Shown: piece by piece, positions 1-28,764 of the stretch
Layout of the letters: every line of letters starts with the position of its first letter
How positions within the stretch are numbered: position 1 is the first letter of the stretch
Source: a virus
Direction: 5' to 3' (one strand)
DNA: 28,764 nucleotides
Virus record (IMG/VR): IMGVR_UViG_3300005518_000034
Location: 1-28,764 of that record
Notes under the pieces: model-generated
Told to the model about the DNA's origin: nothing
The model's database searches: none
The model's input: the letters and a program-made list of their open reading frames with translations, nothing else
Translations under genes and position numbers: made by a program

Positions 1-2719
1 CCTTGCCGACCTTGACCGCGACCCCGATCTCCAGCCCGCCCATGCTAGCCACGGGCTGCCTCATGGCACTCGTGAGCCTCGCAACTGCCTCTCCAAGGCA
101 CCTCGCATGAACCTCCAGCAGGATGCTGTCATGGATGAGCGCGCGAATCGGCGATGCACCCGGCCCGAGGCCTCTGATGTCCCAGGGGCCCTCTTCGACG
201 AGCCGCAGTGCCGCCTCCTTGATGATGCCAGCAGCAGCAGACTGCGGATAGAAGGCAACCACCCGCTTTGAGTCAGCACCTAGCCTCCATTGGCCACTCC
301 GGCCGTCATAGGTGACTACGTCCCAGAACCAGTGCTTGTAGTTGAAGGGGTGGTCCGCACCCCCCAAGAATCCCTGCTGCCCCGCCCTGCGCCGGACCGC
401 CGCATGCCACTCCTTGAGCTTGGGACACAGCTCGTAGAGCAGCCCCTGATTCGCTGCCGCAGCCTTCCTAGTCGGGAATAGCTCTGGGTAGGTGCTCTGG
501 AGCCCCACGTCCGACATCCCATACAGCGTCCCGTAGATCGTCCTCTTGCTCTTGTCGTACTGGAGGACCTTCCCCGAGACCTTCTTGTCATGAGCCTTGA
601 CGAGCTTGAAGTGGGCCGCAAGCTCCTCGTCCCCCCAGGCGAGATCCGCAGGCATCCCCAGGACCTGCCCGGCGTGATACGCATGGATCCCTAGCTTGGC
701 CAGCCTGATGAAGTTGGGGTCACCAATGAAGTACCCAGTGAGCACAGCCTCGATGCTGCTGAAGTCTGCCTCTACGAGGAAGCAGTCCGGTGCCGCTACG
801 ATGCAGCGCCTGAAGCCAGAGGCCACCGAGGCCTCCCCTCCCTCCCCTTCCCGCTCCCCGACCACGTTGGTCAGGTTAGGATTGATGCAGCTGAGCCGCA
901 TGGTGCTAGGGGTGTGCATGTACTGGGCATGCACCCGCCCCGCCGCATCCATCCGCCGCTCAGAGCCCTCAACATAGGTCCCCCGCACCTTGCTCACTGC
1001 CCTGTAGTCGAGCAGCAGCTTGTAAAAGGGGTCCTTGGTGCTCCTCGCCAGCCCCTCCAGCGTCTTCTTGTCCACGCTGGGGTCGTCCGTCTTCTTCTTC
1101 TTGGCCCTCCCTGCCTTGTGCCCCTTGGACTGCAAGTACTTTAGGACTTGGGGAGGGGAGGCCGGATTGAAGGGCTCGCGGACGAAGAACCTAGGAACCG
1201 CCCTCCACTCCTGCTGGAGAGTCTTGCACTTGTGGCTCTTAGCTACCTCGACTGCCCCGCAGGTGACGCAGACGTTGACCAGCCGCTCAACTGCGATCTC
1301 CTCGATGTCCTCACGGGGATAGGTGACCGTCAACGTCTCCTCACCTCGCCCGAACTTGACCTCCTTGACCCCCTCAGGGCGGCGAGCCCAGCCCTCCGCA
1401 GGGTGCAGCTCCAGCAGGGCCGCCGGGTAGGCCTCAGCGAGCTTCCCCTTTAGCCCCTCCTCCCTCTCCAGCAGCTGCTTCTTGAAGTCCCCTAGCCGTG
1501 TCTTGTCGACTTGGAGCCCGGCTGCCTCCGCCGGGTGGAGGACCTTGGTGTCGAGCTCGTAGACATGCCTCCTGAAGACTCCCCACTGTCCTTGCTTGTC
1601 AAGGTCTCCAGCAATTCCGAAAGCGCACCGAAGTGTCTGGACAGCGTCGAGAGCAGCATAGCGGCCTGGGTCAGCTCCTGAGAGATGCTTCCATGCCCCG
1701 TAAGATGAGTAGAAAGGGGCAACAAAGCCGAGGCCTCTAGGGAGGTCTGACTGGAGGACATGCCAGGCCCACATGAAGTCAAGAACGGGCTCAGCGACCT
1801 TGCATCCAGCGCCTCGGAGGCGAGGCACGTCGAATCGCGCGTTCCAGAAGCACTTGACCCCATGTGCATTAAGTAGGCGATGCACTCCGGGCAGGTAAGC
1901 CGCTTCCCAGGGGACGGTGACTCCCTCGTCGAGTCTGCACGCAAAGTTGATCCTGATGATGCTACCCGCGACTTCCTCAAGCTCATCCTCCTCCGCCCCT
2001 AGCTTATGCTCAGTTTCGATATCTACTGCGAGCCAAGGGTCCTTGTCCCCGCCCAGCAGACTCCTGATGTACTCGTCGACCCAGGCCTCGAACCAGGCCA
2101 CCGGGGGGTCTACGACGAGGGCTGGCTCATCAGGAACCCACCCCTGCTCCGCGACCTGCACCGCGCGCTTCAGGTCGAAGCAGGCAGTCCCTATCAGCTT
2201 CTGGTTGCCGCGCAGCAGGAAGCTGGGGTGGAACGTCGGGATCACCCAGCGCCCTAGGGCATCCTTGGTCGGGCACCCATGCCAGTTGTTGATCTTGAAG
2301 CCCCGCTTAGGGAGGGACAGCAGACGCCGCGTAGCGCTGCCCCCGGCGGCAAGGGTAGCCCTCTGGCCCTCCCTAAGCGTGACCTCCAGATACTGTGAGC
2401 AATGCTGGAGCGCAGCCTGTTCCCAAGGGGCCCCATCCAGCCAGTTCCCAGGGGGCTGGCAGCGGACGCAGTTGTCGATCCGGAGGGTCTCGCGGCCCAG
2501 CCCCACGAGCCGGAGGAGCCTGTTCAGCATCCCCCCAGCGCGCCCCACAAACGGCTCCCCTCGGCGCGCTTCGTCCTCGCCGAGGGCCTCTCCGACGATC
2601 AGGAGCCTGGCTCCTGGGGGGCCTACCGCTGGCGCGTACCCTGTCCCCTTGGTCTGTAGCTGGCATCCCGCGCAGCCTGGGGGCTTGACTAGGATGCCTT
2701 GGCCCGCTCCAGCATCGCC
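1..2719 (-). CDS. Uracil-DNA glycosylase (family 4) fused to family A DNA polymerase with 3'-5' exonuclease; C-terminus cut by window edge
   Basis: The frame is open from just after an in-frame TAG (2722-2720) to the window edge, about 906 codons. Residues 1-215 look like a family 4 UDG: CAGC at 16-19, GEALGEDEARRGEPFVG from 43, and PTFHPSFLLRG with His near 164; further Cys lie between, consistent with a 4Fe-4S cluster. Next comes a DnaQ-type exonuclease: VDIETE (Asp233), FWNARFD (293-297), YAALD (354-358). The polymerase palm follows: motif A ADFSSIE (Asp652), motif B SKRTIYGTLYG (Lys725, Tyr729), motif C IHDS (Asp864). A C-x2-C-x8-H-x-C insert sits at 484-498. Phage SPO1 polymerase is a known UDG-like/PolA fusion. 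It should replicate phage DNA and perhaps handle uracil. No ATG, GTG or TTG precedes the Fe-S cysteines, so the start is unknown and 2719 is only the open limit. Confidence 0.93.
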
Positions 2720-8866: not shown

Positions 8867-9480
8867 CAGGAGCACGAGAAGAAGTTCGTTGCCCGCTGGT
8901 GTGGGATCCTCTTCCCAGTCACCACCTCGTAGGCTGCCCAGAAGCGGGCCGCGGGGAAGTCGGCTCGCCAGGACTCAGACCCCATCTGCACGTGGTAGTC
9001 CTCGTAGGCCAGCCACTCCTCGGCTGCCGCCATCAGCCTCTCATAGGTCATGGGGCGCCAGGGACCGTAGTACTGCTCCTCGTCCCCCGAGGACGCCCCG
9101 TCCCCACCCATCTCTCTGGCGATCTGCTCGATGACGGCCTTGGCAGCAGCTACAGTGTCCCCCACGGAGCCCTCTTCCAGCCCCCCAGGCCCCTCCTTGA
9201 AGCTCGGGTGCGTCCAGTGGTGCCTCAGGCTGGTGATGCTCCCAGGGAGCAAGTAGAGCCAGAAGCGGTCGCCCGCCCGCACGAAGTCGTCCAAGAATGG
9301 GTCGACGATGCCTACCCGGGGTGCCGCACCAGAGGCCCTGCCGTCCTCCAGGACCCCCACGAAGTCCCCTGGAGCCAGCTCCGTGGCCGCAACCACAGGC
9401 ACCACAGCGATATGTACGGCATCCCGCTGGGCACCCTCCGGTGCCAGCTTCCCTAGCATCTTCAAGGTCTCATCAGCCAT
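8863..9480 (-). CDS. Conserved hypothetical phage protein (205 aa)
   Basis: Residues 1-85 (MLGKLAPEGAQRDAVHIAVVPVVA, then VGIVDPFLDDFV, RFWLYLLPGSITSLRHHWTHP) follow a pattern I recall from many environmental phages with no known function. A second half (YERLMAAAEEWLAYEDYHVQMG...FWAAYEVVTGKRIP) looks like a short helical domain. It ends CSC. GGAGG precedes the ATG by six bases. The tail meets the ATPase gene tail, the two stops sharing one CTAG. Confidence 0.82.
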   Translation of the reverse strand: MADETLKMLGKLAPEGAQRDAVHIAVVPVVAATELAPGDFVGVLEDGRASGAAPRVGIVDPFLDDFVRAGDRFWLYLLPGSITSLRHHWTHPSFKEGPGGLEEGSVGDTVAAAKAVIEQIAREMGGDGASSGDEEQYYGPWRPMTYERLMAAAEEWLAYEDYHVQMGSESWRADFPAARFWAAYEVVTGKRIPHQRATNFFSCSC

Positions 9481-9497
9481 CCGCCCCCTCCAATTCG

Positions 9498-9535
9498 ATG
9501 CTGGACATCTTATATATACCCCCTATGACCAGAAT
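9498..9535. repeat. 38-bp imperfect palindrome, copy A
   Basis: Arms ATGCTGGACAT (9498-9508) and ATGACCAGAAT (9525-9535), 9 of 11 paired, around a 16-base AT-rich core (CTTATATATACCCCCT). A second copy in reverse orientation lies at 9658-9695. Probably an operator or recombination site; no transcript is implied. Confidence 0.7.
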
Positions 9536-9569
9536 CCTTGGGGACAGCTTCACTGTCTGTCCCCCAAGG
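9536..9569. other. Strong hairpin between the two palindromes
   Basis: CCTTGGGGACAG (9536-9547) pairs with CTGTCCCCCAAGG (9557-9569) with one bulged base and a 9-base loop. No T-run follows on either strand, so it is not a classic intrinsic terminator. It could attenuate or process the minus transcript between the genes at 9640 and 9480. Confidence 0.6.
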
Positions 9570-9639
9570 GAGGAGAGACGGAAGGGTGACCTCCGAGGTC
9601 GAGGGGGGTCGAGCTAGTACCAGTTGGGAGGTGCAGCCG

Positions 9640-9870
9640 CTAGCTGCCCTCCCAGGAATTCTGGACATGGTGTGTATATCTAAGATGTCCAGAATAGCAT
9701 TTGGGGCTCTCAAGGGCCGGTAGTACCACCCAACTGCCCCATTTGGGGCAGCAGAGGAAGTGTGCTGCCAGCCAAGCCCGAACGTCCTTATACTGCTCCC
9801 CCAGCCTCTCCTGCGGCCACCCCTGCTCGCAATAGCCGCACCAGGCAACTACATCCTCTGGTCTCTCCAC
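9640..9870 (-). CDS. Small zinc-finger-like protein (76 aa)
   Basis: Start GTG at 9870, seven bases after GGAGG. VAWCGYCEQGW then AAHFLCCPKWG gives a C-x2-C...H-x3-C-type putative zinc site. The last 20 residues (KCYSGHLRYTHHVQNSWEGS) are encoded by palindrome copy B, so the natural end may have been altered by the repeat. It overlaps the 80-aa gene upstream by 22 bases. Function unknown. Confidence 0.68.
   Translation of the reverse strand: MERPEDVVAWCGYCEQGWPQERLGEQYKDVRAWLAAHFLCCPKWGSWVVLPALESPKCYSGHLRYTHHVQNSWEGS
9658..9695. repeat. 38-bp perfect-armed palindrome, copy B
   Basis: Arms ATTCTGGACAT (9658-9668) and ATGTCCAGAAT (9685-9695), 11 of 11 paired, around a 16-base core that on the minus strand reads CTTAGATATACACACC. 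It is copy A turned around, 160 bp away centre to centre. It lies inside the 3' end of the 76-aa gene. Confidence 0.75.
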
Positions 9871-11735: not shown

Positions 11736-12191
11736 TTGCTGCTTCGGCGGCAGGACCCAGCGGCCCTTCTGGATCTCGGAGCCGCAGCCGTTCCCTGAGC
11801 CGTCGTCGGTGCACTCCATGCCCTCCATGTCCGGCGTGATGGGCCTCTTGAGCTTCATCACGGAGTGCCTGGGGCAATAGCAGGCACTGGGGGACGACTC
11901 CGTGTGATCGACCCAGTAGGAGAGAAGGGCGGGGTCGGGAGGGGCAGCAGTGGTCCCAGTCTCGTCCTCCTCTTGCTCCCGGAACTCGGCCAAGCGTCCC
12001 TCCTTGACGGCCTTAGCCAGCCCCTCCAGCCTCTCCTGGATCTCCTGGAGCCCCTGCCCACCCTTGTCGACGATCTTGCCCAAGACCGTCAAGGTCATCA
12101 TGACCTTGGCCTGCTCGGCCTTGAGCAGCTTGATCGTCTCGGCTAGCGTGTCGAACTCCTCGTGCAGCGCCTTGCTAAGCGCTTCGTCCAT
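11730..12191 (-). CDS. Coiled-coil protein with C-terminal putative zinc site (153 aa)
   Basis: Start MDEALSKALHEEFDTLAETI after AGGAGG. Residues 8-85 are a long heptad-patterned helix with few helix breakers. The C-terminal third has CYCPRH and MECTDDGSGNGCGSEI, four Cys plus His able to hold zinc. It overlaps the AAA+ ATPase end by 17 bases, so the two are co-translated, and it may be an adaptor or substrate receptor for that ATPase (inference). Confidence 0.78.
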   Translation of the reverse strand: MDEALSKALHEEFDTLAETIKLLKAEQAKVMMTLTVLGKIVDKGGQGLQEIQERLEGLAKAVKEGRLAEFREQEEDETGTTAAPPDPALLSYWVDHTESSPSACYCPRHSVMKLKRPITPDMEGMECTDDGSGNGCGSEIQKGRWVLPPKQQA

Positions 12192-13758
12192 GCCCACGCC
12201 CCTCCTCGGCGTGCCCGTTGCCCGTGGTCCTCGCTTCGGCCAGCCCTGCGAGCGCCTCGGCCACCACCCCATGTCCCTCGCGGTGCAACTGCGCCGCCGC
12301 GATGATGGGATGGACTTCCTTGGGGGTCTCGCGGTTCAGCAGCGCCAGCTGGTTCTTGATGCTGTTGCTGGCCACGTAGACATCCTCGGCGTGCAGCACG
12401 AGATGCTTGGTGTCGCCTGCGGAGCGGCGCAGCGCACTCAGCTTGCTGCGCTCCACCACCTCCCTGATGACCGCCGGGATCTGCCCTTCGAGGCTGATGC
12501 CCACGGGGCCCAGGTCCTCGCCCGCGGCCAGCAGCCCCTGCGAGTACAGCCTCACCAGCTCCGCCGCCGCCTTCGCGTCGGGCGGGTCGAAGTGGATGCA
12601 GACATCGATGCGCCCAGGCCTCAGCATCGCCTGCTGGATCTCGTCCACGTTGTTGCTGGTGAAGACCAGCATCAGGTCCTGGTGCTTCGTCTCGATGCCG
12701 TCGAGGATGTTCAGCATGCGGTCGATGGAGAGGGTGCGCTCACCCGCGGTGATCCGGTCGATGTCCTCGCAGACGACCATCGCCGGGGAGTACTGGAGCG
12801 CGAACTTCACGACCTTCTCGAAGTCGTTGGAGTTCTCGCAATAGACCACCGTGATCCCCTTCTTGGTCGCCTTCTTGGCCCCGACCATCATGGTCATGGT
12901 CTTGCCGGTGCCCGGCTTCCCCTCGAAGAGGAGACCACGCTTGCCAGGGAGACCCAGGCTGAGTGCCTCCTTGCGGTAGTCGATGTAGGTGAAAAAGTAG
13001 TCCTCGATCTCTCGGTCGAGCTGCTCCGAGAACCGCAGCTCCTCGGCATGCACCTTGGAGAGGTCCAGGAACTTCGGGGTGATGTTGTTGATCTTCAGCG
13101 CCTGCCCCTCCTCGTTGGTGAACCGGATCTTGATGGCCTGACCCCTGTAGATCGAGTGCTCCCTCAAGTACTCCCTGGTCTTCTCGGCGAGCGCCTTGAT
13201 GTTGGGCTCGTACATGCGCCGGACGGTGGCCCCGATCTGGAACTTCAAGGCCTTCCCGGCTTCCCCAGCCACCTCGGTCATGATGTACCCCTTGACCCCG
13301 GGGATCTGGAGCTTGCCCCAGGGCACATTCACGAACTCCCCGGGCGCGCACTCGACGCTGATGAGGCTCGGAGGCTCATCGCCGAAGAAGGTCTGAATCG
13401 GGACCTGCTTCGCGTACCCGTACTCCTCCTCCATGACCTTGTACAGGGCGTAGGCCCCATCCCAGGGGAACGCCTCGACGGTCTCCGTGATGTTGACCTG
13501 CTGCTCCTCGTACTCCAAGAGCCCCTTCAGGTTGTCGATGACGTCCTTGAGGGGCATGACGTCGGGGGCCGGGAGGATGACCTTGATGCCCTCCCTGATG
13601 ACCTCCGGCTTGAACACCTTGAGCGACTCGGTGGGCTTGGTTGCCATTGCCTTCTTCTCTCCCTGAGGCCTTAAGGCCCCTTGCTTGTTGCTTTCCTGCT
13701 TCGAGGGCCCCACAATCGTGGCCCTCAGAACGTCGATGAAGCTACCCTTTCCTGCCAT
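12175..13758 (-). CDS. AAA+ ATPase, classic (Cdc48/proteasomal-ATPase-like) clade
   Basis: Walker A FEGKPGTGKT near residue 287, Walker B MVVCEDID near 330, sensor 1 FTSNN near 366, and the second region of homology with arginine finger MLRPGRID near 378. The 250-residue N-terminal part (EGEFVNVPWGKLQIPG-like beta segments) precedes the ATPase and may bind substrate. A 527-residue single-ring AAA+ motor fits protein unfolding or complex remodelling. ATG at 13758 has AGGAG nine bases upstream; an internal ATG at 13647 (MATKPTESLKVF) with GAAGG is an alternative. The next gene encodes a coiled-coil putative zinc protein, a plausible partner. Confidence 0.9.
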   Translation of the reverse strand: MAGKGSFIDVLRATIVGPSKQESNKQGALRPQGEKKAMATKPTESLKVFKPEVIREGIKVILPAPDVMPLKDVIDNLKGLLEYEEQQVNITETVEAFPWDGAYALYKVMEEEYGYAKQVPIQTFFGDEPPSLISVECAPGEFVNVPWGKLQIPGVKGYIMTEVAGEAGKALKFQIGATVRRMYEPNIKALAEKTREYLREHSIYRGQAIKIRFTNEEGQALKINNITPKFLDLSKVHAEELRFSEQLDREIEDYFFTYIDYRKEALSLGLPGKRGLLFEGKPGTGKTMTMMVGAKKATKKGITVVYCENSNDFEKVVKFALQYSPAMVVCEDIDRITAGERTLSIDRMLNILDGIETKHQDLMLVFTSNNVDEIQQAMLRPGRIDVCIHFDPPDAKAAAELVRLYSQGLLAAGEDLGPVGISLEGQIPAVIREVVERSKLSALRRSAGDTKHLVLHAEDVYVASNSIKNQLALLNRETPKEVHPIIAAAQLHREGHGVVAEALAGLAEARTTGNGHAEEGRGHGRSA

Positions 13759-17375: not shown

Positions 17376-17690
17376 CTACTCCCTTGTCCTTGAGTCCAAG
17401 GCAGCCACCACTGCATCCTGAGCCTCCAAGTAGGGCTCCTCCATGGCATCAGTCAGCATCTCGCGAGCCATCCACGAGTGCATGGCCTTGGCCTTGGCGA
17501 GGCACTTCTGAGACCTGAGGTCTCGGCCATGGTACCTCGCGATCGGCCTCCCCCACTTGTCCTTGCCCCCCGTCTTGATCGCGGCTTGGAACTCCAGCTC
17601 CTTGATCAAGCGAGAGCACGACTCCTCCGGCAGCTGCGTGAGGTCTACAAGGACCCCCGCAATCTCGATCGTCGTCACCAGCCTTGGCAT
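17376..17690 (-). CDS. Hypothetical protein (104 aa)
   Basis: MPRLVTTIEIAGVLVDLTQL... followed by a helical middle (ESCSRLIKELEFQAAIKTG) and a helical C-terminus ending LDSRTRE. It is the first gene after the large RNA and its terminator, so it probably has its own promoter between 17691 and 17741; I cannot identify one with confidence. AGGGAG precedes the ATG. No family recognised. Confidence 0.75.
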   Translation of the reverse strand: MPRLVTTIEIAGVLVDLTQLPEESCSRLIKELEFQAAIKTGGKDKWGRPIARYHGRDLRSQKCLAKAKAMHSWMAREMLTDAMEEPYLEAQDAVVAALDSRTRE

Positions 17691-17740
17691 GGCTCAACTC
17701 CCTGCGGCCCCTAGCCGCTCTACCTGGTGTTTTCTGGATA

Positions 17741-17816
17741 CAAAAAATGGGCCAGACAAGGCATGCAAGAGGGTTTGCTCGCCCAGCAAAAAGCTCCCTC
17801 ACGCCCTGTCTAGCCC
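17741..17816 (-). terminator. Intrinsic terminator ending the structured RNA
   Basis: Minus strand: GGGCTAGACAGGG (17816-17804) pairs fully with CCTTGTCTGGCCC (17761-17749), 13 bp with two G-U pairs, followed at once by A and six T (17747-17742). The inner part forms GAGGG/CCCTC and TTTGCT/AGCAAA. It faces the minus direction only. Confidence 0.8.
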
Positions 17817-18400
17817 AAGCAGTTGAAGACCCTCAGAGCACAGAAGGCTCTGAGCACCTCGCATCTCGTGGCCCCTGCGGCCCCGCTCTAAGGGTCCTCA
17901 AGGGATGGCTCGATGGAGGGCAAAGACTGAGGTGGAGGGCACCTCAATAGGGCCAGGTTGCCTTGGCTCCCCTCCTACGAACCATCCCTTCAAGACCCTG
18001 CGGCTGAGAGCTGGGGCTAAGCTGAAGCCCTAGTGGTCTCTGTGCATGTCTCAGCACCCACAGTCGCCGCCCCAAGCTCTCAAGTGAAGGCAGCACGCTT
18101 GCAGAACAGGTGGTCTGGGGGCCTCCAGCAGGTAGCAACCCTGCCATCAACAGCCCGCCAGCTCCGATCACCTGGTGGAGGACGTGGAGAGTAGTGGGTC
18201 CACTCTCCTAGGGGTAATCCTCCCGTGCTGCCCTCGCTTCAGAGCTGAGAGCCCCAAGGGAACACCGTTAGTGCTTGAGCGGTTAGCTACGAGCACGGTG
18301 CCTACACTCTCCGCTGCCGCCGTCCCTTGGAGCCCTCAATGCTGCCCACAAGGCGAACTACCCCTGCCTCATGAGCAGCTCTCAGGGTTCCCTAGCTGCT
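17741..18400 (-). ncRNA. Putative large structured non-coding RNA (about 660 nt)
   Basis: No convincing gene here, but many nested stems. In minus-strand order: 7+4 bp hairpin (18374-18400); 15-bp stem (18323-18337 with 18247-18261) enclosing a CACC/GGTG hairpin; 7-bp stem (18186-18192/18202-18208) inside GGAGGA/TCCTCC; a three-tier stem (18166-18174/18107-18115); 12-bp stem (18069-18081/18006-18017); 18-bp stem (17982-17999/17891-17908) closing a junction of GGAGGG/CCCTCC with two hairpins; 8-bp stem (17847-17854/17832-17839); terminator. Five G-U pairs form only if the minus strand is the RNA; two favour the plus strand. Size and setting recall the phage RNAs GOLLD and ROOL, but I cannot match it to either. 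Confidence 0.72.
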
Positions 18401-18500
18401 ATCTGCCTCTTGGTCTCTTAGCCTCAGCAGTAATCTTGACGATCCAGTAGCACGCTGGGCCTGCGACCAAGATGGCCGCGATCCAGCCTAAGCATCCCAA
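18399..18500 (-). CDS. Membrane mini-protein (33 aa)
   Basis: TTG at 18500 to TAG 18401-18399: MGCLGWIAAILVAGPACYWI then VKITAEAKRPRGR, one transmembrane helix with a positive tail. It lies directly downstream of the 56-aa gene, in the same frame after its stop, and directly before the structured RNA. The ribosome site is weak, so translation may rely on coupling. Could also be a chance frame. Confidence 0.4.
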   Translation of the reverse strand: MGCLGWIAAILVAGPACYWIVKITAEAKRPRGR

Positions 18501-18518
18501 AGCGACACCTGCTGTCTC

Positions 18519-18689
18519 CTAGTCCTCTGCTGTCCTCAGCCATGGCTTCGCCAAGAAAGCACATCGTGCTGCAATCTTGGCAGCCCTGCCAGCAAGCTCC
18601 GCGGGCAGCCCGTCCGTGGTGGCTAGCTTACAAGCTAGTCTCCCATGCTTCACCGCCTCGCTGAGCATCTTGTCGTGGTGGTTCGCCAT
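18519..18689 (-). CDS. Small hypothetical protein (56 aa)
   Basis: MANHHDKMLSEAVKHGRLAC..., helical, ending FLAKPWLRTAED. Start chosen at 18689 because AGGCAGGA lies four bases upstream. An in-frame ATG at 18755 would add 22 residues and would use most of the otherwise empty 18690-18828. No family recognised. Confidence 0.62.
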   Translation of the reverse strand: MANHHDKMLSEAVKHGRLACKLATTDGLPAELAGRAAKIAARCAFLAKPWLRTAED

Positions 18690-18828
18690 CAAGTCCTGCC
18701 TCTCGATTGAGGGATCGGGGGGCGCGTTGGCCCGGACATCCCTACCTGCCTTCATTGGGGACCAAGGGGAGCAGGATTGCCCCTCTTGGTCCACGTCTAG
18801 GTGAACGGCATGCTGGACCGCCTTTCTA

Positions 18829-19101
18829 CTAGGACCAGGCGTGACTGCACTGGTCGTAGTCGAGATAGGGGGTGTGGACCCAAGGCTTGGTCTCACTCAC
18901 ATAACGCCCCATGACCATGAAGACCTCCCTGTGGCACTTGGCATGGAGGTAGCCGTTGGTGAGGACTAGACCGAAGTGGAGGGCCTTGGTGACTCCGTGT
19001 GGATGCACATTGATCACGAGCCTGCCCCCAGGCTGCCGGCACCAGCCGCAGCAGGGAGCTTGGTAGTCTCCAAGGACGCTAAGCCAGATGCTTGAACCCA
19101 T
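18829..19101 (-). CDS. Cys/His-rich putative zinc protein (90 aa)
   Basis: MGSSIWLSVLGDYQAPCCGW..., with CCGWC, then NGYLHAKCHREVF and YDQCSHAWS: C-x2-C...H-x2-C-H...C, a plausible one- or two-zinc fold. It overlaps the upstream gene by 23 bases. Part of the run of small zinc-ribbon-like proteins from here to 21495. Confidence 0.7.
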   Translation of the reverse strand: MGSSIWLSVLGDYQAPCCGWCRQPGGRLVINVHPHGVTKALHFGLVLTNGYLHAKCHREVFMVMGRYVSETKPWVHTPYLDYDQCSHAWS

Positions 19102-21260: not shown

Positions 21261-21495
21261 CCTTGCCTCCCTTCCCCTTGCGCCTTCCCTTGTCCCCTAG
21301 GTGCAGCCTATGAGACCTCCCTGAGAAGCGATCGAGGCGCCTGAGGTAGTCTCCAAGCTCCAGAGCGCTCTTCAGCTGCACCCTGTACCACCAGGAGCTA
21401 CATGCGCCACAGAGCTTGCCCCCAGGAGTCACCTCCCAGCAGCTCTGCATGGGACATGGCATGAGCTTCTTCTTGCGAGTCTTAGGAGCAGCCAT
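21253..21495 (-). CDS. Small basic zinc-ribbon protein (80 aa)
   Basis: MAAPKTRKKKLMPCPMQSCW..., CPMQSC then LCGACSSWW: a C-x4-C / C-x2-C site, flanked by Lys-rich termini (DKGRRKGKGGKGD). Probably binds DNA or RNA. AGGAGG precedes the ATG by about ten bases. It ends TAA, overlapping the next start by eight bases. Confidence 0.73.
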   Translation of the reverse strand: MAAPKTRKKKLMPCPMQSCWEVTPGGKLCGACSSWWYRVQLKSALELGDYLRRLDRFSGRSHRLHLGDKGRRKGKGGKGD

Positions 21496-21610
21496 TGGCC
21501 CCTTCCCTCCTCAAGGCCTCCCTTGCAGCCACGATGCTGCAAGCCTCAGCCCAAGGCCAGCCTGCTCCTGCTAGGAACAGCAGCCTCCCTAAGACTGTCC
21601 CCTGTTGCAT
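21482..21610 (-). CDS. Hydrophobic mini-protein (42 aa)
   Basis: ATG at 21610 to TAA 21484-21482: MQQGTVLGRLLFLAGAGWPW then a charged helix (AAREALRREGANGCS). Supported by the 21-base ribosome-site block identical to that before the 55-aa gene at 20087. It overlaps the next gene by 14 bases and is the most upstream gene of the array that I accept. Confidence 0.5.
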   Translation of the reverse strand: MQQGTVLGRLLFLAGAGWPWAEACSIVAAREALRREGANGCS

Positions 21611-21905
21611 CTCTCAGCTCCTCTCTTGCACCCAAGGTGCATTGGGGACACCCAGCCTGCACTGAGTGCCCCCAGGATCCCCTAGCTCGGGGCCATTACA
21701 GCCCCCTGCCCATAGCCCACCTCCCTTGCTCCAAGCATGGTCTAAGGTTGGTCTTAGGTTGGTTCTCAGCAACGCCTCTAAGTGCCCCCATCGGGGCCTG
21801 GTTTGGGCCCAGTTTGGCCCGCCGTGGCCGAAACGCACCCTCCCCACGCCGGCAAACCGCTACATGACCCCTAGGTAGACAGCGCTGCCCCCTACCATCT
21901 TGCAC
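21611..21905. other. Divergent intergenic region with short repeats
   Basis: Between the left-going array and the right-going terminase operon. It holds AGGTTGGT twice (21745-21752, 21756-21763), GTTTGG-type repeats (21800-21821) and a GGGGC/GCCCC hairpin (about 21689-21705). A minus promoter for the array should lie here, but no site matches the TTGACA/TAGNTT pattern. An origin or operator is possible. No gene is convincing. Confidence 0.45.
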
Positions 21906-21941: not shown

Positions 21942-22445
21942 ATGCAGCCCCCCGCCCTACCAGGGGCCCAGCACCAGCCCCCGAATCCCCTGGTCGACTA
22001 CATCACCAACATGGCTAGCCCAGCTGGTGTGAAGCTGACCCCCAAGCGTAGGTCTTACCTAGCAGCCTACTTCGGCCCAGCCAAGCAGAGTCCTACTGAG
22101 GCCGCAAGGATTGCTGGCCTTCCCAACCCCAATGTCAGTGGCGCACAGTACAAGAAGCGCCTACTCCATGTCATTGATGCCCTGACGCTTAAGGCCCTGG
22201 AGGTAGGGTGCCTAGGGGCCCAAGAGGTGATCCAGGAGGTGAGCCTGATCGCCAAGAATGATCCCTCGACCTCTAACCGCCTCAGGGCACTAGAGATGCT
22301 GGCCAAGATCCACGGGTTGCTGACGGACAAGGTGGCTGTCACTCTAGATCGCAAACAGCTAGAGATCGACATCGCAGCTAGCGTGGGGAACCTAAGGCGG
22401 GATGTGGCACCACAGCTGCTAGAGAGGGATGCTAATGCGGATTAG
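21942..22445 (+). CDS. terS: Terminase small subunit
   Basis: After a Pro-rich start (MQPPALPGAQHQPPNP), KLTPKRRSYLAAYFGPAKQS and PTEAARIAGLPNPNVSGAQY form the DNA-binding helix-turn-helix typical of small terminase subunits. A helical oligomerisation region (QEVIQEVSLIAKNDPSTSNR, LRALEMLAKIHGLL) follows. 167 residues is the usual length. It recognises the packaging site and recruits the large subunit. An upstream TTG at 21900 is in frame but lies before the promoter, so ATG 21942 is the start. Confidence 0.88.
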   Translation: MQPPALPGAQHQPPNPLVDYITNMASPAGVKLTPKRRSYLAAYFGPAKQSPTEAARIAGLPNPNVSGAQYKKRLLHVIDALTLKALEVGCLGAQEVIQEVSLIAKNDPSTSNRLRALEMLAKIHGLLTDKVAVTLDRKQLEIDIAASVGNLRRDVAPQLLERDANAD

Positions 22446-22466
22446 CATGAGGAGTCTGGACTCTCA

Positions 22467-22522
22467 GTCGCACCAGGAGCAGCGATAGTTAGCAGACCCT
22501 GTCGCACCAGGGGGAGCGCTAG
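22467..22522. repeat. Two 22-bp direct repeats after terS (candidate packaging site)
   Basis: 22467-22488 and 22501-22522 share 19 of 22 bases (GTCGCACCAGG...AGCG-TAG), one every 34 bp. Small-terminase binding sites often lie in or next to terS as direct repeats, so this is a candidate pac/cos subsite. The rest of 22446-22689 shows no gene I accept. Confidence 0.5.
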
Positions 22523-22689
22523 GGGTGAGAACTCTGCATGCGACTTGGGGATGGACTAGGGCTGGAGAGTGGGGAGGACTAGGCCAGGGCGGGGCTATCG
22601 TTAATGCATGCATGGCCGCTTGCGCTTCCCGGCGCACCCCCCTTGCGTCTCTTCTGCACAGGGCAATGGCGCCCTGGTGGAGGTTTCAA

Positions 22690-23094
22690 ATGGGACTGCA
22701 AGGCAAGGCCGCGGAGATGCTGGCGAAGCTGAAGAGTCTGCGGGCCGCGACGGCCGCGGGCAAGACCGTGAAGGAGGGTGGGCTGACGATCAGCGAGAGC
22801 ATTTACCAGCCCCCGCCCAAGGGCGGCAAGGTGCAGCCCGCCGTGGCGACCATCGTCGTGGAGAACGCGACCCACGGTGACCGCGTGCTCCGGCGCTTCA
22901 CGTTCGGTGCGACCCGGGCGGAGAACGTGTACGGGTTCATCGATCAGGCCGCGGACTTCGCGAGCAGCACGGGCCTCACGGTCCAGGGGTTCACCGGGGA
23001 TCAGCTGGCGGTCATGCGGGAGCATGCGGAAGCGATCTTGGAGCGGGTCGCCAGCATCGCGGAGCGCGGGCTGAAGGGGACGGGCACGGAGTAG
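22690..23094 (+). CDS. Hypothetical protein with atypical codon use (134 aa)
   Basis: Start MGLQGKAAEMLAKLKSLRAA, six bases after GGAGG. Residues 40-65 look beta-rich (QPAVATIVVENATHGDRVLR) and the C-terminus is helical (AVMREHAEAILERVASIAER). Arg is CGC/CGG with no AGG, unlike neighbouring genes, which suggests high expression or recent arrival. It stands between the terminase genes. A virion or DNA-binding role is possible, but nothing identifies it. Confidence 0.75.
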   Translation: MGLQGKAAEMLAKLKSLRAATAAGKTVKEGGLTISESIYQPPPKGGKVQPAVATIVVENATHGDRVLRRFTFGATRAENVYGFIDQAADFASSTGLTVQGFTGDQLAVMREHAEAILERVASIAERGLKGTGTE

Positions 23095-23685: not shown

Positions 23686-24087
23686 ATGCTGAACCACCAT
23701 CACAGCCACAGGCGCCGCGTCCACCTGCTCAGGTTGCAGATCATGGACATCTCGGATGGGGAGTTGAAGCAGGGGGAGGTGCTGGAGGGGCAGGATGCAG
23801 AGGCGGTGCTAGAGGTGATCGAGAGCCTGAAGAAGAACAAGCGGGAGGCTGCTAGGCAGGCTGAGGCAGAGTTCCTGGTCGCCAGTGCCGAGAGGGTAGA
23901 GGTCTTCGCTGAGAAGGTCAACGAGGCCCTGACACACCCAGCGCTGGCCCCCTTGCTCATGCAAGCAGGGAGTGATAGCGGGAGGTACTTCTATAGGGGC
24001 TTGGAGTTCAGGGCGGCCAGTAAGGGACCTGTAGGCTTGGGGCAGCTATCTGATGGTGGCACATTCCCGCCAGTGCCTGATGCCTAA
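23686..24087 (+). CDS. Hypothetical helical protein before terL (133 aa)
   Basis: From ATG 23686 (AGGAG 11 bases upstream) the product starts MLNHHHSHRRRVHLLRLQ; an internal ATG at 23743 (MDISDGELKQGEV) is the alternative and begins the better-conserved-looking part. The middle is a long charged coiled-coil-like helix (VLEVIESLKKNKREAARQAE). The stop overlaps the terL start region. Small coiled-coil genes before terL are common in phages; function unknown. Confidence 0.72.
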   Translation: MLNHHHSHRRRVHLLRLQIMDISDGELKQGEVLEGQDAEAVLEVIESLKKNKREAARQAEAEFLVASAERVEVFAEKVNEALTHPALAPLLMQAGSDSGRYFYRGLEFRAASKGPVGLGQLSDGGTFPPVPDA

Positions 24088-25711
24088 GCTCCCCTCCCTC
24101 AAGGATCTGATGCTGGACCCCAGCCTCATCAAGAGGCTGACGACCCCGCAGTTGCTGCTGCTGAAGGAGCAGGCGGATGCCCTACTCCCCAAGAAGACTC
24201 TAGGGGGGATCCCTGCGAACCCTGCTGACTTTGCCATGCAGATGAGCAAGGGGAGGTGGTGGGAGGCGAGGCATCTCAGGGTCATTAGCAAGCTCTTGGC
24301 TGAGGCGGTGGCGGGGGTGAAGCCACGGGTGCTGCTCAGCACGCCACCTCGGCATGGCAAGAGCGAGCTGACCAGCTACTGGTTCCCCTTGTGGTTCCTG
24401 GCTAAGAACCCGACCAAGAAGGTGATCTTGTGCTCCTACGAGGCAGACTTCGCTGCGCATTGGGGCAGGAGGGTGCGGGATGCGATCAACCTGATGGGTG
24501 GGGAGCTGGGGTTGGAGTTGGATGGGAGCACTACGGCTGCGAACCGCTGGCAGTTGACGACGGGGGGCGGGATGATGACGGCGGGAGCGGGGGGGCCGAT
24601 TACGGGGAAGGGCGCGGACCTACTCATCATCGATGACCCCATCAAGAACGACGAGGATGCGAGCAGCGAGGTCCTAAGGGAGAAGCTGTGGGACTGGTGG
24701 CAGACGACTGCGATGACCAGGCTGGAGCCTGGGGGTGCTGTGGTCATCATCGGGACCCGGTGGCACCAGGATGACTTGATTGGGAGGTTGGAGAGGGAGC
24801 AGAGGAATGAGGGGCTGGACTGGACGGTGATCAAGTTCCCGGCGATTGCTGAGGTCGAGGACCCGCTGGGGAGGCTGCCGGGGGAGCCGCTTTGGCCTGA
24901 GAGGATTCCGCTCAGCATGCTTGAGGAGCGGAAGCGGGGGATGAGTCCGTACAACTTCTCGGCGCTGTATCAGCAGAACCCGACGCCCGAGGAGGGAGGG
25001 GGGATTCCGAGGAGGTGGTGGAGGTTCTACTCGGTGCCGCCAGCAGAGTTTGACCAGGTGATTCAGAGCTGGGACCTGGCCTTCAAGGACTTGAAGACTA
25101 GTGACTACTGTGTGGGGCAGGTGTGGGGGAGAAAGGGGGCGGAGTTCTACTTGCTGCACCAGGTCCGGGGGCACATGAACATGGTGGATGTGATGCAGGC
25201 GATCAGGGCTATGCAGAGCCAGTTCCCGAGGGGGATCGCCAAGCTGATCGAGGAGAGCGCGAATGGGGCGGCCATCTTGCAGATCATGCAGCACGAGGTC
25301 AGGGGGATGATTCCTGTGAAGACCAAGGGGCAGAGCAAGGACCAGAGACTGGAGGCGGTGAAGCCCTTGGTGAATGCGGGGAATGTGTACCTGCCGGAGA
25401 ACTCGGATGGGAGCAAGGCGCCTTGGGTTTGGGAGTTCGTTGAGGAGTGCGCGGCGTTCCCACATGGGACCCATGATGACCAGATGGATGCTATGACGCA
25501 GGCGCTGAAGTACTTGCAGCCGGAGGGGTGGCTCACGTTGGCTAGAGAACGAAGGGAGCAGGCCGCTGGGGCGGGGCTGGCGGGGTCGACTGAGGAGCTA
25601 GCGAACAGGCGCTTCTCGGCCTGGTACAAGAAGCAGATCAAGCTGAGTGACAGGCGGATCGAGCAGAGGGCAAGGGAGATCAGCAGGATGGTCTTGGGGA
25701 GGGGCAGGTAA
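24080..25711 (+). CDS. terL: Terminase large subunit
   Basis: ATPase: STPPRHGKSELTS (Walker A, about residue 88), LLIIDDPIKND (Walker B with catalytic acidic residue, about 184), GTRWHQDDL (coupling motif). Nuclease: SWDLAFK (first Asp, near 336), EESANG, and HDDQMDAMTQAL (final Asp pair, near 464). It packages DNA into the prohead and cuts concatemers. 543 residues is normal. ATG 24080 overlaps the previous stop; an ATG at 24053 would add nine residues. The closest family by motif spacing is Terminase_6/Terminase_6C. Confidence 0.95.
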   Translation: MPKLPSLKDLMLDPSLIKRLTTPQLLLLKEQADALLPKKTLGGIPANPADFAMQMSKGRWWEARHLRVISKLLAEAVAGVKPRVLLSTPPRHGKSELTSYWFPLWFLAKNPTKKVILCSYEADFAAHWGRRVRDAINLMGGELGLELDGSTTAANRWQLTTGGGMMTAGAGGPITGKGADLLIIDDPIKNDEDASSEVLREKLWDWWQTTAMTRLEPGGAVVIIGTRWHQDDLIGRLEREQRNEGLDWTVIKFPAIAEVEDPLGRLPGEPLWPERIPLSMLEERKRGMSPYNFSALYQQNPTPEEGGGIPRRWWRFYSVPPAEFDQVIQSWDLAFKDLKTSDYCVGQVWGRKGAEFYLLHQVRGHMNMVDVMQAIRAMQSQFPRGIAKLIEESANGAAILQIMQHEVRGMIPVKTKGQSKDQRLEAVKPLVNAGNVYLPENSDGSKAPWVWEFVEECAAFPHGTHDDQMDAMTQALKYLQPEGWLTLARERREQAAGAGLAGSTEELANRRFSAWYKKQIKLSDRRIEQRAREISRMVLGRGR

Positions 25712-26064
25712 TGGCTTGGGGTAGGTGCCGTGGGTGTGAGTCTAGGGATCACATGTTGACTACCTTTCAGGCCCTGCTAAACTCGCTGAGGTCTGAAGCA
25801 CAAGACCTTAGGGATGAGATGCGGAAGCTCGATGAGAGGCACGCGGGAGAGACGAGGGCGCTGGTTGACAGGGTTATGGCCTTGACGAGCCCTGCGGCTG
25901 CCCTTGCGATGCACCCTAGGGTGCCTAGGGAGCAAGTGCGCCAGGGGGTGATTAGGCCGCAGTTTCCTGGGTTTGAGCCAGACCTGAGGCCACCGAGTCC
26001 GAAGAAGCAGGATCCGTCTGCACCTGTAGGCGCCATCCCAAGCCAGGATAAAAAGACCCGCTAG
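25711..26064 (+). CDS. Small coiled-coil protein (117 aa)
   Basis: MAWGRCRGCESRDHMLTTFQ..., with CRGC at the start and a long heptad-patterned helix (LRSEAQDLRDEMRKLDERHA), then a Pro-rich tail. Its ATG shares a base with the terL stop (TAATG), so it is translationally coupled. Possibly a head-assembly accessory. No family recognised. Confidence 0.75.
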   Translation: MAWGRCRGCESRDHMLTTFQALLNSLRSEAQDLRDEMRKLDERHAGETRALVDRVMALTSPAAALAMHPRVPREQVRQGVIRPQFPGFEPDLRPPSPKKQDPSAPVGAIPSQDKKTR

Positions 26065-26081
26065 AGGGATCAGCTAGGATC

Positions 26082-28764
26082 TTGAGCAACTCAAACCAGC
26101 GCCGCTTCAAGCCCCCCGCCTTCGGTGCCAGTGACACGGAGCTTCTGGACTACCGCGACCGCTACTTCAACTTCAAGAGCGTGTGGCGGTGCAGGGTCAT
26201 GGACAGGATGGCCAAGGCCAACTACTACCAGATTGGGAGGCAGTGGATCGAGCTGGATGTGGATGTGCTCTTCGATAACAGTCGAGGGTTCGCCTTCAGG
26301 GACATGGTGCCCTCGGATGGGGCCCAGATGCCGCGGCCGGTGCTGAACTATGTGACGGCCTCGGTCGAGATTGAGCTGAGCGCCCTAGGGAGAAGGCAGC
26401 TGGTGCCGGCCGTCCTCACCACGAGCACTGACCCCAGGCTAGAGGCTGCGGCCAAGGCCGCCAAGGAGATCCTTGAGCACAGGCTGAAGGAGAATAATTG
26501 GCCTGAGGTCAGGGAGCTGGTGACCTTCTTGACCATTGTGTGTGGGGTGGGGTGCCTCAAGAGCTACTGGGACGAGACCTGGAACTCCATGGTTGAAGAG
26601 GGGTTGGAGGGGGGCATGGCTTGCCCCAGCTGCGGCTATAGCGAGGCCCCGCCACAGGCGGCCCCTTTGCCCGGCGAGGCAGCCGCTCCCGGCTCCCCTC
26701 CAGCTCCTCTTGAGCCAGAGACCCCTGAGGCACCCGCAGTCGACATGACTGAGGGTGAGGCTGCTGCTGCACCCCCAGTCCCCCCAGGCTCCTGCCCCAC
26801 CTGTGGCCTCCCCATGGAGCCAGTCGAGCCCGAGCAGGCCCTAGAGATGGGCAAGGACTCGGTTGGGAAGCCGATGACCCAGCTGAGACCGAAGGGTAAC
26901 CCAAGGCTTGAGGTGGTCAGCCCCTTTGATCTCTTCCCCCAGAACTCCGGCGTGGATGTCACCCCAGACACTTGCAAGGTCTGGGGGCAGGCGAGCGTGA
27001 GGAGTATGGACTGGCTGGAGGAGCACTACCCGGACAAGGCTGGCGAGGTCATGCCAGATGAGCCGAGTGAGCTGCTCCAGTACCATCCGCTGCTTGGGGA
27101 GTGGAGCATTCTGGGGAGGTTCGATTCGGCCCTGGACAGCGGCATCTACGCTGACCACGTCAGGGTCTTCGAGGTCCACGGGGAGAAGACCTACGAGTTC
27201 CCTGAGGGCTGGAGCTTGGTGATTGCTGGGACCGCAGGGAACGCCAAGGTCATGTTCCACGGGCCGCTCTACAGGACCGTGCAGACTTCCCAGGGGCCGC
27301 TCTCGGTGCCCCTAGTCAAGTACACAGCGGCCCGGTGGAAGTACAGGCACAAGGACTTCTGGGGCCAGAGCCTAGTTGATGACTTGATCAGCCCTCAGAA
27401 CATGCTGAATGGGCTGGTCTCGCAGGTGGTTGAGGCCAGGCAGAGGATGGGAGGGCCTAACCTGCTCGCCTCTGAGGCCATGGAGCTGAGTGGGCCTGAG
27501 TGGAACGAGGGCTACGGGGTCGGGAAGATCATGCGGTACCAGACGGATCCGCTGAATCCCAACGCACAGCCTGTCCCCTTCGGCGGGCAGACGATGCCGG
27601 CCGAAGTCTACATGGAGTTCGACAAGCTGCTCCAGGCCATGAGGGACATCGCGGGGCCTCAAGATGTCGAGGTGGGGGAGGCACCGAGGAATGTGACCAC
27701 GACTGGGGGCCTTCAGCTGCTGAGTGAGAAGACTGAGGCTCGGAGGGCACCTAGGGAGCGCGCTCTGGTCGCCATGTACGAGAAGGCCTGGGAGCACCAG
27801 CTGATGCTGGAGTGGGCCCTGCGCACCGAGCCCGACAGCTACGAGATCGAGACCCCCGAGGGCAGCTGGGAGAGGCACGAGTACACGCGGGAGATGATCG
27901 CCGGGCAGACCAAGATCAAGATCGAGAAGCAGGCCTTCATCGACAAGAGCTTGTTCCAGAAGGAGGCGGCCCGGGAGGCGCAGGTGGATGGGCTGTATGT
28001 GCTGGACTCGCAGCTGGCCAAGAAGAGGCTGCTAGAACTGCGCGGGCTGCCCACGGATGTGAACCCTGACCTCAACCGCCAGGTCGACCTAGGGAAGAGG
28101 CAGTGGGTCGACTACGTCGACAACGGACGCATGCCCGTCATCGACCCCTCCATCGACGACTTCAGGATCCGGTTCCAGACCCTAGCCACCATGCTCATGG
28201 AGGACGAGGGCAAGGAGCTTGAGGAGGCGGTGAACTGGGACGGGGTGAACAAGCTGATCAGGGGCTGGGAGCAAGAGCTGGGCCAGATGGAGATGCAAGA
28301 GATGGCTGCGCTCCAGTTCTATGGGGCTCGACTCCCCATGGAACAGGCCATGCCCATGTACCAGCAGGGCATGCAGGTGTTCCAACAGCAGAGCGCCGAG
28401 TTCGAGAAGACGAGTGCGCTGGAGGAGAAGGCTGCGGCCAATGGGGCACCCCCAGCGATGGCGACGCCGCCTCCCCAAGCCCCACCGCCCCCTATCTTCC
28501 TCCCCGCTGCCAAGGAAGACCGCATCTACATGCTGTGGAAGCAGATGATGATGAGGCAGGGAGTGCAGGTGGTGCCACCCTCTGGGGGCCTCATCACCGA
28601 AGATCCCTCCATGATGCTGCCCCCCGAGTTCGCCTCCAAGCAAGACAACTTCCTCAAGTTCAGGGCCGTCATCGATGCTTACAAGCTCCTCGCCGAGCAG
28701 AAGGAGATGCAGAGCATGATGGCTATGATGCCGCCAGCCGCCTCCCCAGGGACTCCTGAGGGGA
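26082..28764 (+). CDS. Portal protein, podovirus/P22-like type (partial, at least 894 aa)
   Basis: TTG start at 26082, 18 bases after the previous gene; no other start nearby. The core ARWKYRHKDFWGQSLVDDLI and PQNMLNGLVSQVVEARQRMG match portal proteins that form the dodecameric DNA channel. RDRYFNFKSVWRCRVMDRMA at the N-terminus also fits. Residues 181-241 hold an insertion: CPSC, a Pro/Ala/Glu linker of about 53 residues, then CPTC, predicting one zinc site formed across the linker. The C-terminal 150 residues are Met/Gln/Pro-rich. It runs off the window; already longer than P22 gp1 (725 residues). Confidence 0.88.
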   Translation, partial: MSNSNQRRFKPPAFGASDTELLDYRDRYFNFKSVWRCRVMDRMAKANYYQIGRQWIELDVDVLFDNSRGFAFRDMVPSDGAQMPRPVLNYVTASVEIELSALGRRQLVPAVLTTSTDPRLEAAAKAAKEILEHRLKENNWPEVRELVTFLTIVCGVGCLKSYWDETWNSMVEEGLEGGMACPSCGYSEAPPQAAPLPGEAAAPGSPPAPLEPETPEAPAVDMTEGEAAAAPPVPPGSCPTCGLPMEPVEPEQALEMGKDSVGKPMTQLRPKGNPRLEVVSPFDLFPQNSGVDVTPDTCKVWGQASVRSMDWLEEHYPDKAGEVMPDEPSELLQYHPLLGEWSILGRFDSALDSGIYADHVRVFEVHGEKTYEFPEGWSLVIAGTAGNAKVMFHGPLYRTVQTSQGPLSVPLVKYTAARWKYRHKDFWGQSLVDDLISPQNMLNGLVSQVVEARQRMGGPNLLASEAMELSGPEWNEGYGVGKIMRYQTDPLNPNAQPVPFGGQTMPAEVYMEFDKLLQAMRDIAGPQDVEVGEAPRNVTTTGGLQLLSEKTEARRAPRERALVAMYEKAWEHQLMLEWALRTEPDSYEIETPEGSWERHEYTREMIAGQTKIKIEKQAFIDKSLFQKEAAREAQVDGLYVLDSQLAKKRLLELRGLPTDVNPDLNRQVDLGKRQWVDYVDNGRMPVIDPSIDDFRIRFQTLATMLMEDEGKELEEAVNWDGVNKLIRGWEQELGQMEMQEMAALQFYGARLPMEQAMPMYQQGMQVFQQQSAEFEKTSALEEKAAANGAPPAMATPPPQAPPPPIFLPAAKEDRIYMLWKQMMMRQGVQVVPPSGGLITEDPSMMLPPEFASKQDNFLKFRAVIDAYKLLAEQKEMQSMMAMMPPAASPGTPEG

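Follow-up and report, generated by a model that had tools for sequence, protein, structure and literature searches.

A candidate large structured non-coding RNA on the minus strand of a phage genome

A long stretch without coding signal between two minus-strand genes

A region of about 760 nt at 17.74–18.50 kb of a phage genome is, on its modelled fold and its setting, fairly probably a genuine gene for a large non-coding RNA (ncRNA) on the minus strand. The window, by which we mean the whole stretch of DNA analysed here, is an IMG/VR virus record of 28,764 bases (IMGVR_UViG_3300005518_000034) and represents an incomplete genome. A preliminary description of the window had proposed a large structured minus-strand ncRNA that could be a divergent GOLLD or ROOL; the former part of this proposal is well supported by single-sequence evidence, whereas the latter found no counterpart in searches with the models of these families. 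The candidate, its two neighbors, and the genes that orient the genome are the following.

17741..18500, minus strand: candidate large structured ncRNA, about 760 nt, with an approximate 5' end and the 3' end at the T run
18519..18755, minus strand: upstream small gene, about 78 aa with an uncertain start codon, inside the open reading frame 18519-18896; coding score 0.41 (18601-18750)
17376..17690, minus strand: downstream gene, 104 aa; coding score 0.43-0.47
2-2548, minus strand: DNA polymerase, in the minus-strand replication block
12175-13758, minus strand: AAA ATPase, in the same replication block
24053-25711, plus strand: large terminase (TerL), followed by a portal-like protein

The candidate is located in the longest run of the window that lacks a coding signal, about 870 nt at 17.64–18.51 kb, made up of the two overlapping non-coding runs 17641-18000 and 17941-18510; the runner-up is 390 nt long. 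When codon usage was scored with 14 clear genes of the same phage as the training set, values were near zero or negative in all six frames of this run. Every open reading frame (ORF) of at least 30 aa inside the gap scores no higher than 0.04, compared with about +0.1 to +0.8 for most of the adjoining genes, in agreement with the earlier statement that 17741-18400 holds no convincing gene. The two genes that flank the gap are both on the minus strand, as is the candidate RNA, and the 104-aa protein encoded downstream was assigned to no family by PHROG or Pfam. A search for a sigma-70-like promoter ahead of the candidate RNA returned none, and the phage may rely on other promoters.

The minus-strand fold is stable and well defined

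The minus strand of 17741-18500 has a minimum free energy (MFE) of -393.9 kcal/mol, compared with -330.8 ± 8.0 kcal/mol in 60 dinucleotide shuffles, which corresponds to a z-score of -7.9 (-6.0 in a run with 20 shuffles) for a region that had originally been chosen for its structured look. The plus strand of the same region gave a z-score of -4.6, and two coding controls from the same phage gave -2.0 and -1.3. When 760-nt windows on both strands were ranked after correction for base composition by regression over 140 background windows, the candidate came out on top (residual -4.3 sd), and ranks 2 and 3 were taken by windows overlapping it. Bases in pairs with a probability (P) above 0.9 make up 49% of the candidate versus 22 ± 11% in the shuffles, with none of 50 shuffles reaching that fraction, and the ensemble diversity of the candidate is below that in all 50. 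Because the MFE is extreme, high-probability pairs are many, and ensemble diversity is low, the minus-strand fold is stable as well as well defined, and the impression of a structured region given in the preliminary description is confirmed.

Modular architecture and strand assignment

The fold can be described as the following series, given 5' to 3' on the minus strand. Six modules (P1, P2, P3, P4, P6, and P8) were folded singly; their limits were set at helix ends, so that the module z-scores listed here, for the minus strand and then for the plus strand, are inflated.

18385..18498, minus strand: P1, an interrupted long hairpin, the 5' module and the weakest (z -2.4 and -2.1); helices with P of 0.83-0.99, except one small helix at 0.30
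18341..18379, minus strand: P2, a 17-bp hairpin with a GUAG loop (z -5.3 and -3.5); stem arms 18362-18379/18341-18357
18247..18337, minus strand: P3, a perfect 15-bp stem (18323-18337/18247-18261; two G-U pairs on the minus strand, mean P 0.92) with an ill-defined apical part (z -3.7 and -3.4)
18075..18246, minus strand: P4, a three-way junction with a 21-bp closing stem (arms 18224-18246/18075-18097) and two further arms (18177-18223 and 18107-18174); helices with P of 0.81-1.0 (z -6.3 and -3.7)
18006..18074, minus strand: linker holding the hairpin P5 (18063-18040, mean P 0.77)
17868..18005, minus strand: P6, a three-way junction with a 28-bp stem (arms 17968-17999/17891-17922, mean P 0.97) and a small hairpin (z -6.1 and -4.1)
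17825..17860, minus strand: P7, a 14-bp hairpin (mean P 0.54)
17742..17817, minus strand: P8, in the form of an intrinsic terminator, with an outer stem of 18 bp (17800-17817/17748-17765), inner stems of 5 and 6 bp, and T6 at 17747-17742 (z -6.5 and -3.4)

The 15-bp stem reported previously (in P3) pairs fully on the minus strand, as had been stated, and stems of 17, 21, and 28 bp and the terminator hairpin were recovered there as well. Two points needed revision. The terminator does consist of a stem followed by six T, but the stem is 18 bp and not 13 bp long. The 3' end of the region at the T run holds, whereas the upstream limit of 18,400 falls short by about 100 nt, the structured part probably beginning near 18,498; because P1 is outside the range first described, the probable start of the RNA is at about 18.50 kb.

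Unpaired spacer between the modules is scant, and the long-range helices that would close the whole structure are poorly supported, with P of 0.06-0.42. The segment 18013-18004 is complementary to 18385-18376 and also to 18082-18071, which allows alternative pairings (inverted repeats I5 and I9). Kissing interactions were dropped as a line of evidence, as the best loop-loop complementarity was under the shuffled mean, with no excess. The 12-mer GGGGCCGCAGGG (minus strand) occurs at 17873-17884 in P6 and at 17700-17711, a short way ahead of where the 104-aa gene starts, and its core of the first nine bases, GCCGCAGGG, has a third copy at 17996-18004.

In all six modules tested the plus-strand z-score is weaker than that of the minus strand, and none prefers the plus strand; the earlier remark that two stems mildly favor the plus strand therefore has no support at the module level. 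Among strand-neutral stems read on the minus strand, G-T outnumbers A-C by 17 to 6 at best (p = 0.09), which is not significant at any preset threshold, and in the four strongest and longest of these stems, a subset picked afterwards, the count is 14 to 2. Module folding, terminator, and the orientation of the neighboring genes all point to the minus strand.

Comparison with known large RNAs

GOLLD and ROOL are large phage-borne RNAs, often found near tRNAs, that assemble into cages made of RNA only and exceeding the ribosome in size (PMC12286853). Searching the window with the covariance models of GOLLD (RF02032) and ROOL (RF03087) yielded 0 matches at E ≤ 10, a cut-off above which no control genome scored either. 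All 4227 Rfam families, run at gathering and relaxed thresholds, produced only chance matches resembling microRNA hairpins, none of which reached threshold. The assignment to a divergent GOLLD or ROOL is thus not borne out by the models at this cut-off, which no positive control passed, nor does any other Rfam family take its place.

The candidate resembles GOLLD in being encoded by a phage (GOLLD is found in phages and prophages, is often longer than 800 nt, and forms a cage; PMC12286853), in being non-coding, and in having many stems and junctions. It resembles ROOL, whose function is unknown and which also makes an RNA-only cage (PMC12286853), as a large multi-stem phage RNA. It differs from both in giving no match to their models and in lacking tRNAs nearby: ARAGORN found 0 tRNA or tmRNA genes in the 28.8-kb window of this incomplete genome, so that the tRNA-island neighborhood, which is common but not necessary for GOLLD and ROOL, is absent here.

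The most abundant transcript of the Vibrio phage ICP1 is about 800 nt long and comes from an ORF-less gap of about 1 kb in a phage without tRNAs; its discoverers likened its length to those of GOLLD and ROOL (PMC7567579). The lncRNAs of phage K are another precedent (PMC9241854). Like the candidate, the ICP1 lncRNA is located in a coding-free gap within a leftward row of genes in a phage without tRNAs (PMC7567579). The two differ in that transcription has been shown for ICP1 and is predicted for the candidate, and they share no sequence match in the blastn search of phages. In the same folding test the ICP1 gap reaches a z-score of just -2.4, little above chance, so that strong folding is not required of a real phage lncRNA; the candidate is far more structured. 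By analogy of setting, the ICP1 gap appears to be a nearer parallel than GOLLD or ROOL. The general marks of a large structured phage ncRNA, namely a long non-coding stretch and a stable, defined fold on one strand, are both found in the candidate.

Search for relatives and the phage lineage

We found no homologue of the candidate RNA in the phages, plasmids, and IMG/VR or GTDB contigs searched. At the DNA level, phages and plasmids gave no match to the region, comparison with 40 related records gave nothing but chance matches of 14-25 bases, and a DNA pattern derived from P4 had two matches in the IMG/VR and GTDB scans, both due to chance. Single-sequence covariance models of P4 (R1) and P6 (R2), run on 49 records, matched only the window itself, together with weak matches on its opposite strand that are expected from inverted repeats. 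We also used the neighboring proteins as baits (the ATPase, the 104-aa protein, TerL, a phosphoesterase, an SprT-like protein, and the portal) in the IMG/VR and GTDB contigs, which, apart from one close record (L044), recovered only distant relatives that do not share the gene order, and a pattern for a conserved ATPase motif recovered distant phages only. L044 is the closest record, with TerL 85% and the portal 91% identical; its 4.7 kb stop short of the RNA locus.

The best matches among known phages have at most 44% identity in TerL and 27% in the portal-like protein, the latter a partial match. Judged from these protein comparisons, TerL and the portal-like protein (24053-28763) mark an isolated phage lineage. 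The AAA ATPase (12175-13758) belongs to phrog_10440 and shares about 40% identity with proteins annotated as FtsH-like metalloproteases in Schitoviridae and other phages. The relatives of the ATPase and those of the DNA packaging genes point in different directions, and at the level of sequence similarity the genome is a mosaic.

Alternative explanations

The start codon at 17690 of the 104-aa gene follows the terminator by about 52 nt, and one rival reading makes the region an attenuator or long structured leader for this gene, in which case the RNA would be the 5' part of the mRNA and the terminator would be conditional. An antiterminator can be sought in 17959-17968, which is complementary at 9 of 10 positions to part of the 3' arm of the terminator (inverted repeat I12), and alternative pairings exist around 18004-18013. 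However, 10-nt matches present in two copies are many and this complementarity may be a chance one, a terminator with so long and nearly completely paired a stem would be hard to disrupt, and the riboswitch, T-box, and leader families in Rfam give no match. To our knowledge, there are no attenuating leaders as long as about 700 nt, which also counts against this reading, and we consider it unlikely. An equally unlikely explanation is that the region is not one RNA but a row of unrelated hairpins that may include a terminator, sites of RNA processing, and what is left of decayed genes or of small inverted duplications. The predicted fold does consist mostly of adjacent local stem-loops, and this explanation gains weight from the low probabilities of the long-range helices that would close the structure; the loop-loop complementarity at chance level and the lack of a homologue in the collections searched are also in line with it. 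Against it are the preference of all six tested modules for the minus strand, the two three-way junctions predicted with high probability, and the scant spacer between modules. In addition, compact phage genomes seldom retain 800 nt lacking a use.

It is very improbable that the inverted repeats work in DNA, as a replication origin or a packaging or recombination site. Their long arms could make cruciforms or single-stranded DNA hairpins, and folding above chance is seen on the plus strand too (z -4.6), but the arms are imperfect with mismatches that lean to G-U on one RNA strand, and the window offers better candidates for an origin or operator in the skew switch near 22 kb and the AT-rich inverted-repeat element at 9.5 kb. 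Least probable of all is a diverged GOLLD, ROOL, or other Rfam member that the covariance models missed. Size, phage origin, and the coding-free gap would fit such a member, whereas the GOLLD and ROOL searches, in which no positive control came above the cut-off, gave 0 matches at E ≤ 10 and the 4227 families gave chance matches only.

Proposed function and significance of the candidate ncRNA gene

As an ncRNA gene, the locus would produce a stable RNA of about 760 nt, read leftward along with the small minus-strand genes of the phage. The 18-bp hairpin of P8 and the T run would end transcription at 17742, and the transcript is predicted to fold into eight stems set closely in a row, of which two would be three-way junctions. 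By analogy with GOLLD, ROOL, and the transcript of about 800 nt from ICP1, the RNA would accumulate during infection. It would then work through its folded shape, probably serving as a scaffold of a structural or oligomeric kind, and not by coding or short antisense pairing. Transcription, stability, function, and an oligomeric state are what we infer for this locus; a scaffold function in particular, which is suggested by comparison with the cage-forming RNAs, is possible but doubtful.

The modelled fold may belong to a new class of large structured phage ncRNAs with no other member to date. That it is an undescribed class of large ornate phage RNA, with no detectable relation to GOLLD, ROOL, or Rfam, that assembles itself into an RNA-only complex during infection is rather unlikely. 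Few large structured phage RNAs are known to us, and their functions are unknown. A further, unrelated class, if true, would mean that phages have reached such RNAs more than once and would provide a new object for work on structure and function. With one genome as its basis, the candidate is clearly bounded, ends in a terminator-like hairpin, and is built of modules open to testing one at a time.

Other structured and non-coding regions in the window

A second strongly structured patch is located at 9480-9780, where the 200-nt fold has a z-score of -10 on the plus strand and -7 on the minus strand. This patch contains TATATATA and, at about 9659-9694, a 10-bp inverted repeat, TTCTGGACAT...ATGTCCAGAA; the half-site CTGGACATCTTATATATAC recurs at 9501. 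The patch may be an operator/promoter pair or a replication origin. A 12-base stretch of P3, TGAGAGCCCCAA (plus strand; 18246-18258), is the reverse complement of approximately 9703-9715 in this patch, a match that may be due to chance in a genome with many matches of 12 to 13 bases. Two further non-coding gaps, 21421-21810 and 22381-22710, flank the position near 22 kb at which the cumulative GC skew turns and the gene direction changes from minus to plus, and they are likely a divergent promoter or origin region.
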